Shown here: piece by piece, positions 2,574-33,301 of the stretch
How the letters are laid out: each line of letters begins with the position of its first letter
Numbering within the stretch: the first letter of the stretch is position 1
Assembly: GCF_015767675.1 (NCBI RefSeq)
Contig: NZ_CP065217.1
Location: forward strand, 3,224,001 to 3,288,000
Reading direction: 5' to 3'
DNA: 64,000 nucleotides
Source of the DNA: Vibrio navarrensis
GTDB lineage: Bacteria > Pseudomonadota > Gammaproteobacteria > Enterobacterales > Vibrionaceae
Notes under the pieces: generated by a model
The model's database searches: none
What the model was told of the DNA's origin: nothing
What the model saw: the letters and a program-made list of their open reading frames with translations, nothing else
Program-made: the position numbers and the translations under genes

Positions 2574-5500
2574 TCAACGACGACGGCGTAGCAGGCCTAA
2601 GCCAAGGAGTGACAGCAGGGCACCAAAGCCAAAACTACCACCAGAACCGTCGTTCTCTGGATACACTGGCTTCACATTGCTTGAGTCACGTTTAACCACC
2701 GACATTTCCAGCGCTTTGCTTTCAACGGTCTCTTGCGCTGCGCTCTTCTCAACCGCATCACGTTTGAGTGTCATGGTGAAGGTGTACTCGCCCGCATTCA
2801 GGCCAACCACGTCAAACATCACCGTTTGCGCACCATCATTGCTCAAAGTTACTTTCGGTAGCGCGACGCCTGCAGGGCGAGGCGAGATAGCGATCTCGGC
2901 TACATCACCTTTTTTCGCTTTGGCTGACACTGGGAAAGCAATGTCCGCTCGGCCACTTTTCACCGCGACAGTGACTGGGTTCTCACCCGCTTCACCATAT
3001 TTATAACCAATCACCAGTAGCGCTGGGTCATGGTCTGATGAACGGAACGGCGTTTGAGCATAGAATGGATTGCTCTGTTCACTCGGTTCTTTCTTGTAGT
3101 TACCATAATCGTAGAGGTTCGATTCTGGCGCGTTGATGTGCCAATCTTTCGCATCCACTAAGCGATCTTTCATTGATGGCGAAACCAAGAGATGGTCAAG
3201 CGAACCAATTTCATTGTTAAACGAGTAACTCCATGAGGTTTCGCCTTGCGCAGTAAACAGATCGACTGCATTCAGGTAGCCATACGTCTTGGTGATGCGA
3301 GCACCTTCAGGACCATACTGTGGCTGGCCATCGATGTAGGTATAACCTGCAGCGTACAGCGCTTTGCCCGTTGGGTTACTGGTCAGAACCAACATAGGAT
3401 CTTCGTGCGCGTAGGAGTTCATATCGCCCAGCAGCACTTTATCACCCGATAGCTTGGCCATCTCTTCGCCCAGATGCACCGCGGCCGCAACACGGACGTT
3501 CTCACACGCACCTTGGTAGTCGTCATCGCGAACATCGTCGGTCACTGGGTTGAAATTCGCCCAGTTCTGCCATCCTGCCCAATCTTCATAACAGGTTGAG
3601 CCTTTTGATTTCAAATGGTTGATGGCAACGGTCAGTTTCTTACCAGTATTGAGCACGCCAAAGGTCGCAGCAATGGTATTGCGCTGGAAGTTGGCGCCGC
3701 TTTCACGGATCTCACCATCTTCACCAACAATCGCGCCCCCTTCAGGGTATTCAATCATCGGTGCATGCTGCTCAGGCATCGAGATAACTTTGCCAAACTG
3801 TAGTGACACTTTTGAAGGGCGATAGATAACGCCTGTGGTGATCGCATCACTGCCGATGGTGTCGAGATCATCCAACACTTGGTCGCCATTTTTATCAAAG
3901 CCAACAAAGACATAGCGATTATGAATAGAGCGAGCATGATTGCGATCGCCATAATTTTCATAGTCATATTTAGCATTGATGGCTGCTAACAAGGTTTTGA
4001 TTGCGCCAAAGTCACCAAAACCATTATTTTCCACTTCCATCAGACCGACGATGTCGGCATTCAAGCCATAGATAGCCTCAACAATTTTTGCCTGCTGACG
4101 TTCAAATTCCAGCGAGGATTTGGCACCACGGTTATCACCAAACGTGTTATCTGACCCACCGAATGGCGAGTTGAAATAGTTGAGTACGTTTTGCGTTGCC
4201 ACTTTAATCACAAAGCCGTCAGAACCATTATCGGTATTGATACTTGGCGCAGTCGTACGTGGCGTATTGTGTACAATGTCACTAGTGCTCAACTGATTAC
4301 TTGGCACTAAACGATACTCGTCGTAACTGTAGGTCATGACACCTTCAAGGTTTTTGACCGTATCGTTAATGCGAATATAGTTTTTCTGTGGGTCGCTATT
4401 AAACGCTGGATAATAAGGGATCTCACCGTTCTTTGGCGCAACCGCACTGTCGACAAACAGAGTACGATCTCTGTTTTGATTTAGCTGCATTAGAGATTCG
4501 AAACTGCCTGCCACGTGATCTTGGTTCGGGTGGAAGTTCGGACGTTCGTACGCAAGCACCATGTTGTTTCGGTACTGCTTTTTGTCTAGAAGCTCGAAGT
4601 CGAAGTTAAAGGCACGTGCGACATGCATGCTTTGATTGCCCTCTTTGGCATCATCCATGTCTTCAACCAGCTTAACCAGCATGCCCTCGTAACGCTCCAG
4701 CGTTTTAGCAAAAGATGCACCATCGGACTCAAGACGTTTCATTTCCGCAGGCGCAATCGTAACTTTATTGCTGTCGGTAACGACCCATTCGCCATCCGTT
4801 TCCAGTTTAAACTGCGTTTGGCCGAAGTATTCACGTACCTTACCGGTCACCGTGATCTCTTGGCCCACCATATCTGCATTGGCTTTGTTCGAGTAAACAA
4901 AAAGACCGTTGGAGGTGGCTGGATTGTTGTCTTCATCGTAGAGGAAGAAACCTTTCGAGATGCCGTTGTTGGCACTGATCAACACATGGCTAACACGTGC
5001 GGTCAACTTATAGTTTTCTTCGGTTTCGTAGAACTTATCTTCCTTAAGATCGCTGCCATGTTCTTTCTCAATCAATGGCGAGAACATCCCCGAACCTTGC
5101 ACTTCAGCAAGAGTGACTTCAGTCGGAGGTGTTGGCGGCGCAGGTGGCTCAACAAACGTTGGCTTACCCAGATCAGCGAAAGTGTCCACCGCTTCAGCAG
5201 CCCAGTTCGCTTCCACAAATGCCGCATTCTGCGTCATCGCGGTATTAACGCGTTTGTAGGTAACGTCCGCGCCCCAGTTGTTGCTGTTTTCACCGATGAT
5301 ATCAAGCGGCGCATCTTTGCTACCGATCCAAACCGCTTCACCACCATTGAAGTTCAATGAGTCATATTTGTCTGTCGTCCAGTTACCTGTTTTCAGCAAA
5401 ATGCCGCCATTTTGCTCGACATAATCCGTGAGTTCCGCAGTTGCATCGCCATTGACAATCACCAGACTCTTACCAGCAGGAATAGTCTTACCGGTCAAAA

Positions 5501-30099: not shown

Positions 30100-31221
30100 A
30101 TGGACTACCAGCAACTCGCGCAACAGATCAAAATTTGGGGAGCCGAACTCGGTTTTCAAAAAGTCGGGATCTGCGATGTTGATCTGCGTGAACACGAGGC
30201 CGAGCTGCAAAAGTGGCTAGATGCAGGCTATCACGGCAGCATGGATTGGATGGCCAGACACGGCATGATGCGTGCTCGCCCCGACGAGTTGCTCCCCGGA
30301 ACCATCCGAGTGATCAGCGTGCGCATCAACTATCTTCCTCCACAAGCGCAGTTTGCTGCAAATCTGGCTGACAAAACTCAAGCCTACATCAGCCGCTACG
30401 CCCTGGGCCGTGACTATCATAAGCTAGTTAGAAAGCAGCTCAGTGAACTCGGCAAACGTATTGAAAATGCGGTCGGTGCCTTCGGTTATCGGCCTTTTGT
30501 CGATTCAGCCCCCATTTTGGAGCGACCTTTGGCGCAAAAAGCCGGACTTGGCTGGACTGGAAAACATTCACTGATCTTAGATAAAGAAGCTGGCTCTTGG
30601 TTTTTCCTCGGCGAACTGCTGATCGATTTGCCTTTACCTGTCGACGAACCAAGTGACGATGACTGTGGGAAATGTAAAGCGTGTATCACCTCGTGCCCAA
30701 CCCAAGCCATCGTCGACGACAAAATCGTCGATGCCAGACGCTGTATCTCCTACCTGACCATAGAGTTTTCTGGGGTCATTCCTGAGGAATTTCGCAAAGC
30801 AATGGGCAACCGAATTTACGGCTGTGACGATTGTCAGTTAGTTTGCCCTTGGAATCGTGAAGCGGAACTCACCGAGCAGAGCGACTTCCATCGCCGTGAC
30901 TCGCTACGTCAAGCTGACCTTGTGAATTTGTTTCTATGGGATGAGCCCACCTTTCTGAAAAAGATGGAAGGTTCGGCGATCCGTCGCATTGGTCACTTGC
31001 AGTGGCTGAGAAACTTGGCGATAGCCATGGGGAACGCCCCTTATTCACTGAAAATTGTGCAAGCATTACAAGAACGCAAGGGACAAAATGAACTACTGGA
31101 TGTTCACATCGATTGGGCTCTAGCAGAACAACTGAACCAATCGGCCGATCACTCTACTATCGATATCAAAAACCAAAGGCTAATCCGTATCGTTGAAAAA
31201 GGTCTGCCTAGGGACGCATGA
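30100..31221 (+). CDS. queG: Epoxyqueuosine reductase
   Basis: The last step of queuosine synthesis in tRNA, reducing epoxyqueuosine with cobalamin and two [4Fe-4S] clusters. The 373-residue protein shows the cluster motifs [16 protein letters not shown] and [11 protein letters not shown], and the N-terminal [24 protein letters not shown]. The ATG at 30100 (after CAGG) aligns with the family start; the open frame extends 51 nt further up. It is divergent from tsaE and is followed by the DnaA-box region. Confidence 0.96.
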
Positions 31222-31281
31222 GGCGTGGGCAGAGCACAGAAACACAGTGCAATATTTGACCTCCCTCTCAATTTTCCAAAA

Positions 31282-31290
31282 TGTGGAAAA
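31282..31290 (-). promoter_or_regulatory. DnaA box (TTTTCCACA)
   Basis: Matches TTWTNCACA on the minus strand. It is part of the queG-tRNA cluster. Confidence 0.45.
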
Positions 31291-31535
31291 AATCCAGGAG
31301 CAACGCATTCTACAGCCTTCTCGGAAAAGTTAAGCACATATCCAATCAATGACTAGGATCAAAAAAAGATGCCATTATGATCCAAATATAACGCATGAAT
31401 GACTAACCATCACAATAAAAAACAATAAAAAACATATAGTTAACAGAATTAGCCACTAACAGCTTATTAAAGGGGAGAGCAAAGATCCTTTTTTCAGAAG
31501 AAAGTCAACTACTGCAGAACATGTTATCAACTAAG

Positions 31536-31544
31536 TTATCCACA
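31536..31544 (+). promoter_or_regulatory. DnaA box (TTATCCACA)
   Basis: A perfect R1/R4-type DnaA box, inverted relative to the next one 10 bp away. A half-match TTATCAACT lies 12 bp upstream. Confidence 0.7.
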
Positions 31545-31554
31545 ATATAATTTC

Positions 31555-31563
31555 TGTGGATAA
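31555..31563 (-). promoter_or_regulatory. DnaA box (TTATCCACA, minus strand)
   Basis: A perfect box facing the one at 31536. The pair is separated by ATATAATTTC. Confidence 0.7.
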
Positions 31564-31642
31564 GTCTGTTAGCGAAATAGGGAAATGCCCAGTTTTCTTG
31601 AGAAAGCTAGGCTAAATAAGTGACTCAAAAACAAGAGGCAAC

Positions 31643-31675
31643 AAAAAAATATCCGAAAGCGTTTTCCGGATATTT
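31643..31675 (-). terminator. tRNA operon terminator
   Basis: On the minus strand AAATATCCG / CGGATATTT with an 11-nt loop is followed by a T-run. It lies about 70 nt after the last tRNA-fMet gene. Confidence 0.85.
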
Positions 31676-31743
31676 ATTTCATTCTTTGGGGTTCATGCTT
31701 CTCAGCATTACTAAAGAGCGATGGCTTATAAGCCAGAAGAAAT

Positions 31744-31820
<77 letters not shown>

Positions 31821-31831
31821 TCCGTATTGTG

Positions 31832-31850
31832 TCACTGTTAAGCACAGTGA
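31832..31850. repeat. tRNA-spacer hairpin with covarying stem
   Basis: TCACTG-TTAAGCA-CAGTGA. The loop TTAAGCA equals that of the other spacers (CATCG-TTAAGCA-CGATG at 32298), but both stem strands have changed together. Confidence 0.6.
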
Positions 31851-31862
31851 GAGCTTTGAATG

Positions 31863-31957
31863 TGGTTGCGGGAGCTGGATTTGAACCAACGACCTTCGGG
31901 CACGATAAGAGCTACACCCGACGAGCGTGACCTCAACCTGCTCCATCCTAGTGTCGC
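31863..31957 (-). pseudogene. Chimeric fMet/Gly tRNA remnant
   Basis: The 3' half of tRNA-fMet (CCA end to T arm, 31863-31900) runs into a patchwork of spacer sequence (CACGATAAGAGCTA), fMet anticodon-arm sequence (CCCGACGAG), Gly sequence (GCGTGACCTCAACC), fMet D arm (TGCTCCATCC) and the Gly 5' acceptor (TAGTGTCGCA). No anticodon stem can form. Confidence 0.75.
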
Positions 31958-31990
31958 ATTTCATCGTTAAGTACGATAACAATTAACATC

Positions 31991-32047
31991 TGGAGCGACA
32001 CACGAGGTTCACTGTTAAGGTTGCGCTCTACCAACTGACAGTGTCGC
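31991..32047 (-). pseudogene. Truncated tRNA-Gly remnant
   Basis: Keeps the Gly acceptor (GCGACAC / GTGTCGCTCCA) and D arm, but the anticodon arm and T arm are replaced by ACTGTTAAGG. It is 57 nt instead of 76. Confidence 0.75.
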
Positions 32048-32073
32048 AATGATTAAATGCGGAGCTTTGAATG

Positions 32074-32150
<77 letters not shown>

Positions 32151-32204
32151 TCCGATATTACCGTTAAGCACGATAAGAGCTATACCATTTTACTTAAGAG
32201 AAAA

Positions 32205-32293
32205 TGGAGCGACACACGAGGTTCACTTCTTTAAAACAAAAAGGCGTGACCTCAACCTTGGCAAGGTTTGCTCATCAACTGAGTTAGTGTCGC
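32205..32293 (-). pseudogene. tRNA-Gly-like with T-loop insertion
   Basis: The Gly acceptor and GCC anticodon stem are kept, but the T arm carries about 20 U-rich bases (CCTTTTTGTTTTAAAGAAGT in RNA sense) and the D loop is shortened, giving 89 nt. The same form recurs at 32868 and 33099, so it arose once and was copied with its cassette. Confidence 0.7.
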
Positions 32294-32326
32294 ATTTCAT
32301 CGTTAAGCACGATGACAAATTCAATT

Positions 32327-32402
32327 TGGAGCGACACACGAGGTTCGAACTCGTGACCTCAACCTTGGCAAGGTTGCGCTCTACCAACTGAGCTAGTGTC
32401 GC
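32327..32402 (-). tRNA. tRNA-Gly (GCC)
   Basis: An intact 76-nt cloverleaf: acceptor GCGACAC / GTGTCGC, anticodon loop TTGCCAA, T loop TTCGAAC, encoded CCA. Confidence 0.95.
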
Positions 32403-32436
32403 AATGATTAAATGCCGGAGCACTTAATACAGAATG

Positions 32437-32485
32437 TGGTTGCGGGAGCTGGATTTGAACCAACGACCTTCTGGCTGCTCCAGTC
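32437..32485 (-). pseudogene. Deleted tRNA-fMet remnant
   Basis: The 3' acceptor and T arm are as in the intact copy at 32737. The whole anticodon arm, part of the D arm and the 5' acceptor are missing. The flanks are identical to those of the intact copy for more than 60 bp. Confidence 0.75.
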
Positions 32486-32537
32486 CGATATTACCGTTAA
32501 GCACGATAAGAGCTATACCATTTTACTTAAGAGAAAA

Positions 32538-32608
32538 TCGAGGTTCACTTTAAAACAAAAGGCGTGACCTCAACCTTGGCAAGGTTTGCTCATCAACTGA
32601 GTTTGCGC
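32538..32608 (-). pseudogene. Deleted tRNA-Gly-like remnant with T-loop insertion
   Basis: Corresponds to the elements at 32205 and 32868, but the 3' acceptor (GGAGCGACACAC), part of the insertion and part of the 5' acceptor are deleted. Confidence 0.7.
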
Positions 32609-32641
32609 ATTTCATCGTTAAGCACGATGACAAATTCAATT

Positions 32642-32702
32642 TGGAGCGACACACGAGGTTCGAACTCGTGACCTAGTGCTCTACCAACTGAGCTAGTGTC
32701 GC
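32642..32702 (-). pseudogene. tRNA-Gly lacking the anticodon arm
   Basis: Acceptor, T arm and D arm match the intact Gly genes, but the anticodon stem-loop is gone (GTGACCT joins AGTGCTCTACC). 61 nt. Confidence 0.8.
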
Positions 32703-32736
32703 AATGATTAAATGCCGGAGCACTTAATACAGAATG

Positions 32737-32813
<77 letters not shown>

Positions 32814-32867
32814 TCCGATATTACCGTTAAGCACGATAAGAACTATACCATTTTACTTAAGAGAAAA

Positions 32868-32956
32868 TGGAGCGGCACACGAGGTTCACTTCTTTAAAAC
32901 AAAAAGGCGTGACCTCAACCTTGGCAAGGTTTGCTCATCAACTGAGTTAGTGTCGC
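32868..32956 (-). pseudogene. tRNA-Gly-like with T-loop insertion
   Basis: Same form as 32205-32293 (U-rich T-loop insertion, altered D arm), with one more acceptor mismatch (GCGGCAC on the 3' side). Confidence 0.7.
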
Positions 32957-32989
32957 ATTTCACCGTTAAGTACGATGACAAATTCAATT

Positions 32990-33065
32990 TGGAGCGACAC
33001 ACGAGGTTCGAACTCGTGACCTCAACCTTGGCAAGGTTGCGCTCTACCAACTGAGCTAGTGTCGC
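32990..33065 (-). tRNA. tRNA-Gly (GCC)
   Basis: Intact 76-nt gene, same sequence as the copies at 32327 and 33226. Confidence 0.95.
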
Positions 33066-33098
33066 ATTTCATCGTTAAGTACGATGACAACTTCAATT

Positions 33099-33190
33099 TG
33101 GAGCGACACACGAGGTTCCCTTCTTTAAAAACAAAAAGGCGTGACCTCAACCTTGTCAAGGTTGCGCTCTACCAACTGAGCTAGTGTCGC
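33099..33190 (-). pseudogene. tRNA-Gly-like with T-loop insertion and anticodon GAC
   Basis: The D arm is normal here, unlike the two other insertion forms, so this is the least decayed. The anticodon loop reads TTGACAA in place of TTGCCAA, which would be a Val anticodon on a Gly body. The T-loop insertion differs by single bases from the others. Confidence 0.7.
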
Positions 33191-33225
33191 ATTTCACCGT
33201 TAAGTACGATGACAACTATAAATTC

Positions 33226-33301
33226 TGGAGCGACACACGAGGTTCGAACTCGTGACCTCAACCTTGGCAAGGTTGCGCTCTACCAACTGAGCTAGTGTCG
33301 C
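33226..33301 (-). tRNA. tRNA-Gly (GCC), first in operon
   Basis: Intact 76-nt gene nearest the operon promoter. Confidence 0.95.

Follow-up and report, generated by a model that had tools for sequence, protein, structure and literature searches.

A probable datA-type cluster of DnaA boxes between queG and the tRNA array of Vibrio navarrensis and other Vibrionaceae

The window, by which we mean the whole stretch of 64,000 nucleotides of the Vibrio navarrensis genome that was analysed, contains a gene-free interval bounded by the stop codon of queG (31221) and the start of the first gene of a tRNA array (31744). Open reading frames for mutL, amiB, tsaE and queG lie on its left side, and Met and Gly tRNA genes, followed by open reading frames read as orn, rsgA and psd, lie on its right side, the labels having been assigned via the E. 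coli record. In E. coli MG1655, the order is psd, rsgA, orn, glyV-X-Y, a 269-bp gap, queG, nnr, tsaE, amiB and mutL, with a short annotated open reading frame (yjeV) at the queG end of the gap, and datA is reported to be located in this glyV-X-Y/queG gap (PMC10380432). The initial annotation had proposed that the interval corresponds to the position of E. coli datA. This is borne out by the matching gene order (mutL-amiB-tsaE-(nnr)-queG-datA-glyVXY-orn-rsgA-psd) and by the identical orientation of the tRNA genes, so that in the window, as in E. coli, the locus lies between the tRNA-Gly operon and queG. The same annotation had described a stretch of 420 bp flanked by tRNA-Gly genes; the stretch is indeed gene-free, but it measures 522 bp, and the tRNA cluster consists of Met as well as Gly genes. 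Between the tRNA genes accepted by ARAGORN, positions 31840-32730 of the window hold degenerate, truncated tRNA-like copies, as read from the sequence.

Table 1. Positions of the genes, DnaA boxes and other elements at the locus. A+n, offset from box A.
Feature	Positions in window	Strand	Remarks
queG (epoxyqueuosine reductase)	30103..31221	+	upstream neighbour of the interval
queG-tRNA intergenic interval	31222..31743		522 bp; datA position of E. coli
Box D, TTTTCCACA	31282..31290	-	273 bp from A
Box C, TTAAGCACA	31330..31338	+	one mismatch to TTWTNCACA; inverted relative to D, starts 48 bp apart
GATC pair (31379-31382, 31357-31360)	31357..31382		starts 22 bp apart; in conserved block
IHF-like site, TAACTATATGTTT	31430..31442	-	A+121; two mismatches to YAANNNNYTGATW
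GATC	31484..31487		A+76
Box B, TTATCCACA	31536..31544	+	inverted relative to A, starts 19 bp apart
Box A, TTATCCACA	31555..31563	-	counterpart of E. coli datA box 2; ACAGAC directly before
Position of E. coli box 7, here TCGCTAACA	31567..31575	-	12 bp upstream of box A
Terminator-like hairpin	31647..31675	-	between last tRNA and box A; 12 pairs, T run
tRNA-Met(CAT)/tRNA-Gly(GCC) array	31744..33301	-	transcription runs towards the box cluster

The DnaA boxes are named A to D in the direction of tRNA transcription (Table 1). All four had been noticed in the initial annotation, as two perfect inverted boxes (now A and B), a further box (D) and a one-mismatch box (C), and each is confirmed at its position. 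Over the whole window, the consensus TTWTNCACA is not enriched (five matches, against 6.47 expected from shuffled sequences). Three of the five sit inside the 522-bp interval, for which the scaled shuffle rate gives an expectation of about 0.05; the Poisson probability of about 2e-5 was obtained after the fact, and the AT-rich spacer (AT content of the interval, 67%) pushes the expected number up somewhat. Genome-wide, there are 61 copies of TTATCCACA and 22 of the reversed 9-mer, and only two pairs of TTATCCACA lie less than 30 bp apart, namely the A/B pair and a pair at C1:2232603/2232617.

We regard conservation as the decisive control against chance. The signature A, 9–10 bp, B, 224–254 bp, D is present in 177 of 197 Vibrionaceae genomes and its reversed control in none of the 197; the inverted pair alone occurs in 23/23 Vibrionaceae and in 1/272 other genomes of the order, with the reversed control (by our own count of rows) at 0/23 and 9/272, respectively. 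Sixty of 67 scanned intervals contain all four boxes: the window itself, 30 of 31 named genomes, 11 of the 17 genomes without the exact pattern that could be used (out of 20, three having been left out for want of a queG match), and all 18 of those used from 20 fetched for matching the pattern. The second fragment of a gene already represented (L113, belonging with L110) and two stretches without queG (L121 and L129) were left out before the count, and L114 and L115 stand outside the 67-interval scan. Because the last 18 intervals were picked by the signature, the fair conservation figures are 30/31 named genomes plus the window, and 11/17 pattern-missing genomes. The comparison over Vibrionaceae that the initial annotation had proposed as a check is thus positive both by the signature and by the named genomes.

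Among the 60 complete intervals, the starts of A and B are 18 or 19 bp apart, those of C and D 48 bp (55/60) or 47 bp (5/60), and A and D are separated by 262–281 bp. Box D reads TTTTCCACA in 52 genomes and TTGTCCACA in eight, these being six pattern-missing genomes and the named V. metoecus (L017) and V. aestuarianus (L025), all of which have the four elements. In 15 of the 60 genomes box B is TTACCCACA and box A still TTATCCACA. The seven intervals counted as failures are L039, in which box C is degenerate, L106, L108, L109, L110, L112 and L102, the last of which is nearly all N and hence uninformative; six readable intervals out of 67 accordingly lack one or more elements. A chance cluster is rejected because the signature is conserved family-wide with near-fixed spacing.

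A site resembling the IHF consensus lies between boxes A and C. The consensus applied, YAANNNNYTGATW, was derived from the published WATCAANNNNTTR (PMC4585315; PMC10380432) by reverse complementation and relaxation of one position, and the shuffles used for this and for the GATC and 13-mer counts below preserve base composition alone. Matches with at most one mismatch occur at A+114 to A+129 in 44/60 intervals, against 4.15% of shuffled spacers, and in 25 of the 31 intervals of the subset formed by the named genomes plus the window. The best offset falls between A+117 and A+125 in the 60 genomes and at 120–125 in 57 of them; when both strands from A+28 to A+250 are divided into 4-bp bins, 8/60 is reached in no more than two, each of which falls at the place of the IHF-like site. 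The search for an IHF site suggested in the initial annotation therefore succeeded over the family, where the site stands between the essential boxes and in the same orientation as in datA, and less well in the window, whose own site has two mismatches and is among the weaker cases of the 60.

For comparison, we used 40 Enterobacterales datA loci, including that of K-12. The motif ACAGA[G/C] stands directly ahead of box 2 in all 40 and directly ahead of box A in 53/60 Vibrionaceae, with ACA retained in the other seven; in the window the sequence is ACAGAC-TTATCCACA, that is, a box 2 with its lead. That this lead is common to both groups argues for common descent of the Vibrionaceae locus with the Enterobacterales datA. 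E. coli box 7 is described as a two-misfit box beside box 2 (PMC5835720), and from this description and a box scan we infer that it is TTGTAAACA, overlapped by the lead. The 9-mer at this place has one or two mismatches in 38/40 Enterobacterales; in Vibrionaceae, 12 bp upstream of A, it has one or two in 40/60, three in 16/60 and four in 4/60. The window belongs to the last group, TCGCTAACA being a poor DnaA box (four mismatches by our own count) with only the final ACA retained. A Vibrionaceae box 7 is thus not proved, because the 9-mer has one or two mismatches in only 40/60 genomes and four in the window. The downstream box of datA (box 3) has its probable counterpart in box D, found in 60/60.

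The distances differ between the two groups. In Enterobacterales, a second box follows 159–165 bp after box 2 in 40/40 loci, and 35/40 have, 64–67 bp from box 2 and in the same orientation as in Vibrionaceae, an IHF site with no more than one mismatch; the corresponding Vibrionaceae distances are 262–281 bp to the last conserved box and 117–125 bp to the IHF-like site. These spacings vary little within either group, and at E. coli datA the spacing is reported to be important (PMC4585315). Vibrionaceae additionally have the inverted box B, for which a scan of E. coli datA finds no counterpart at up to two mismatches, a second box pair (C/D) and more GATC sites. Since spacing and box number differ from those of E. 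coli, the putative Vibrio datA is best described as a distinct architecture. Outside these groups, 40 loci of 17 other families of the order were hand-chosen from 68 non-Vibrionaceae genomes with a queG match. The lead with a consensus box was found in four of them, from three families (L141, L148, L155 and L156), and is absent from eight that keep the tRNA-Gly neighbour; because of this distribution, a datA-type element looks common to Vibrionaceae and some other lines and is apparently no general property of the gene order.

GATC sites are denser between A and D (8.9 per kb) than in the tRNA-side flank (1.8 per kb). In 35/60 intervals the starts of two of them are exactly 22 bp apart, whereas 1.07% of shuffles contain a pair at 20–24 bp. 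Of the named genomes that show the layout, the pair is present in 20, namely 19 Vibrio and Aliivibrio fischeri, and missing from ten, namely one Vibrio and the Photobacterium and Enterovibrio rows. The pair is possibly a site for SeqA or for another protein, the latter because the surrounding block is conserved beyond the GATC sites themselves (GATC.TTaa...TTTGATC.T..TCATtT). RctB iterons were considered for this block and set aside on the aligned rows that were read, which show no constant TGATCA (motif as given in PMC3937223).

On the 3,534,271-bp contig, the cluster occupies C1:3255282–3255563 and dnaA C1:16–1398. A 469-bp mnmG-mioC gap (as the open reading frames were read), at about C1:3526561–3527029, holds three consensus boxes and 13 GATC sites and is taken as the standard oriC. 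The distance from the cluster is 271 kb, or 7.7% of the chromosome; E. coli datA lies about 467 kb from oriC in 4.64 Mb (10%), so that both loci are roughly one tenth of the chromosome away. The genome has genes for DnaA, IhfA and SeqA. The position of DARS2, beside mutH, is elsewhere, with mutH near C1:546 kb. There, the mutH-rppH interval (L090 2628-3248, i.e. G000:C1 about 546.1-546.7 kb; labels from a reading of open reading frames) contains four consensus and five one-mismatch DnaA boxes.

In E. coli, datA is a brake against excess chromosome copying. Its boxes 2, 7 and 3, together with IHF, are reported to promote hydrolysis of the DnaA-bound ATP (PMC5835720). Read-through from glyV-X-Y lowers IHF binding at datA before initiation, and box 2 reduces this read-through (PMC10950094). 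Matching parts are seen at the Vibrio locus: the tRNA genes are transcribed towards the cluster, a terminator-like hairpin precedes box A, and the boxes are paired, with an IHF-like site lying between the pairs. We consider the interval a likely Vibrionaceae orthologue of datA, at which a complex of DnaA and IHF would limit re-initiation of chromosome 1. The Vibrio equivalent of datA suggested in the initial annotation is in this sense supported by gene order, conserved boxes, the IHF-like site and the lead common with Enterobacterales. DnaA would occupy two inverted pairs, C/D and A/B, the latter together with a weak site upstream at the position of box 7. IHF would bend the DNA about halfway between the pairs and so join the two DnaA groups. 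After replication of the locus, which lies about 271 kb away from oriC, the complex would take up DnaA and stimulate hydrolysis of the ATP bound to it. By analogy with E. coli, this hydrolysis would limit re-initiation of chromosome 1. Binding of the two proteins, looping, ATP hydrolysis, an influence on initiation and regulation through tRNA-operon transcripts that run on into the locus are all predicted here from the arrangement of the elements. Against the datA reading we count the differing box-to-IHF spacing, the weak IHF-like site and box-7 position of the window, box B, which the E. coli scan did not match, and the six readable intervals that are incomplete.

The same boxes might merely titrate DnaA, with no ATP-hydrolysing complex being formed. 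Boxes alone would suffice for titration, and the weakness of the IHF-like site in the window suits it; yet titration needs neither a fixed A-IHF-C-D layout nor an IHF-like site whose position and orientation are conserved, and we give this explanation a minor share of the probability. A site of the DARS type, which would reactivate DnaA rather than inactivate it, is improbable. DARS1 and DARS2 are likewise non-coding DnaA box clusters, DARS2 also uses IHF (PMC4585315), paired boxes with an IHF-like site would fit DARS2, DARS-like sequences are reported for V. cholerae (PMC6090056), and sequence does not reveal in which direction the nucleotide would be changed. The locus, however, lies in the datA position, carries the lead of datA box 2, and coexists with a separate box cluster at the mutH-rppH position of DARS2 in the same genome.

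There is also little probability that the boxes serve chiefly as a transcription roadblock or attenuator for the tRNA operon or queG, or that an A/B hairpin works as RNA. A terminator-like hairpin does precede box A, although it is statistically weak (one found, against a shuffle mean of 0.7), E. coli box 2 does reduce read-through (PMC10950094), and boxes A and B could pair, the RNA fold of the A/B strand being somewhat better than shuffles (z -1.85, 2/100 as good). This explanation leaves C, D and the IHF-like site unaccounted for. Apart from tRNA, no Rfam match was found in the interval up to E = 1; no stop-free frame spans A-D in any of the 60 intervals; and the 15 genomes that combine TTACCCACA as B with TTATCCACA as A speak against a conserved hairpin, a wobble pair still being possible at the RNA level. 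On the absence of an Rfam match and of a stop-free frame and on the modest fold score, a structured RNA or a small protein was rejected. A roadblock need not exclude the datA reading, as it is part of datA control in E. coli. A spare replication origin, to which the boxes, the IHF-like site, the AT-richness and the abundance of GATC sites might point, is very improbable indeed and was set aside: the standard oriC with its 13 GATC sites is at mnmG-mioC, and 13-mers of the oriC type are little enriched (no more than one mismatch in 7/60, compared with 3.3% of shuffles).

The probable datA function bears on how vibrios inactivate DnaA. Conversion of DnaA-ATP to DnaA-ADP in E. coli is mainly the work of Hda-dependent RIDA (PMC5302844), the contribution of DDAH at datA being smaller (PMC5835720); Hda is listed for alpha-, beta- and gammaproteobacteria (PMC3290774), and many bacteria are reported to be without it (PMC6784150). 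With the profile NCBIfam TIGR03420, no match over the cut-off was found in the genome of the window, where all 62 candidates were scored and the best was DnaA itself. Of 41 Vibrionaceae genomes, in many of which only 53 candidates were scored, one (G004) has Hda over the cut-off. A search via named loci in 33 genomes gave 0/14 Vibrionaceae against 19/19 others, the Vibrionaceae sets of 41 and 14 genomes overlapping. The Hda of G004 has 233 residues and is 58% identical to that of E. coli. Its gene lies, as in Shewanella marisflavi, between two conserved genes and beside arsC-like and bepA-like genes, the E. coli order being bepA-yfgD-hda-uraA-upp; the two conserved genes we take to be DUF2069 and DUF2066. 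In the genome of the window, V. metoecus, Aliivibrio fischeri and Photobacterium phosphoreum, both neighbours are present, the slot between them is an empty gap of 78–242 bp, and Hda queries find no match within the stretch; in the genome of the window the slot lies in L205 (G000:C1:2565500-2574000), between open reading frames ending at 4337 and 4416. Because the neighbours are present, the gap is short and no Hda query matches, hda looks lost from its place rather than overlooked, a strongly diverged Hda elsewhere being conceivable. A tree of QueG places G004 and another genome (G011) beside non-Vibrionaceae rows, with weak support and in a single gene tree that has a long-branch row; loss of hda after Vibrionaceae began diverging would fit, on what is thin evidence.

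As the hda-bearing G004 failed the four-box test, we suspected that hda and the four-box architecture are mutually exclusive. The suspicion was dropped because the G004 interval has an ACAGAG lead followed by a variant of box A (TTATACACA), a box B with one mismatch and a further box downstream, and because G001 and G011 have neither hda over the cut-off nor the full layout. As hda was not found in nearly all Vibrionaceae examined, the datA-like locus may carry a larger load of DnaA-ATP hydrolysis than in E. coli. We raise, as a tentative proposal with clearly less than an even chance, that hda, and RIDA along with it, has disappeared from nearly all Vibrionaceae, and that an enlarged datA is their main off-switch for DnaA-ATP, the order of importance known from E. 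coli being reversed. Such a datA could consist of two DnaA box pairs around an IHF bend, joined in many Vibrio and Aliivibrio by the 22-bp GATC pair, which could be read by SeqA. No statement on the absence of Hda in vibrios was found in the portions of the literature covered, including those of PMC4285127, PMC4468827, PMC6784150, PMC3290774 and PMC3141006.

Nor was a description of a DnaA-type datA in Vibrio found, in a literature coverage that was partial and in which 'datA' is inseparable from 'data'; the initial annotation likewise knew of none. DnaA-box clusters of Bacillus subtilis and Streptomyces coelicolor are considered analogous to datA, repressing untimely initiation (PMC5742627); they belong to distant bacteria and are likened here by description, not by sequence. 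The RctB-titrating sites of V. cholerae chromosome 2 have been likened to datA for titrating an initiator (PMC3937223), but their ligand is RctB rather than DnaA, and the chromosome they act on is chromosome 2. In the two-chromosome vibrios, a datA orthologue present throughout the family would provide a specific locus at which to study how initiation is limited on chromosome 1, and its different spacing a natural variant for testing the geometry that a datA complex requires. The apparent absence of Hda sharpens the question, as vibrios without Hda would need another route by which DnaA-ATP is switched off, for which the locus is an immediate candidate. Separately, the second close inverted pair of TTATCCACA in the genome (G000:C1:2232603-2232625, L091) has starts 14 bp apart and is flanked by what we take to be genes for a torC-like cytochrome and a formate/nitrite-transporter-like protein.
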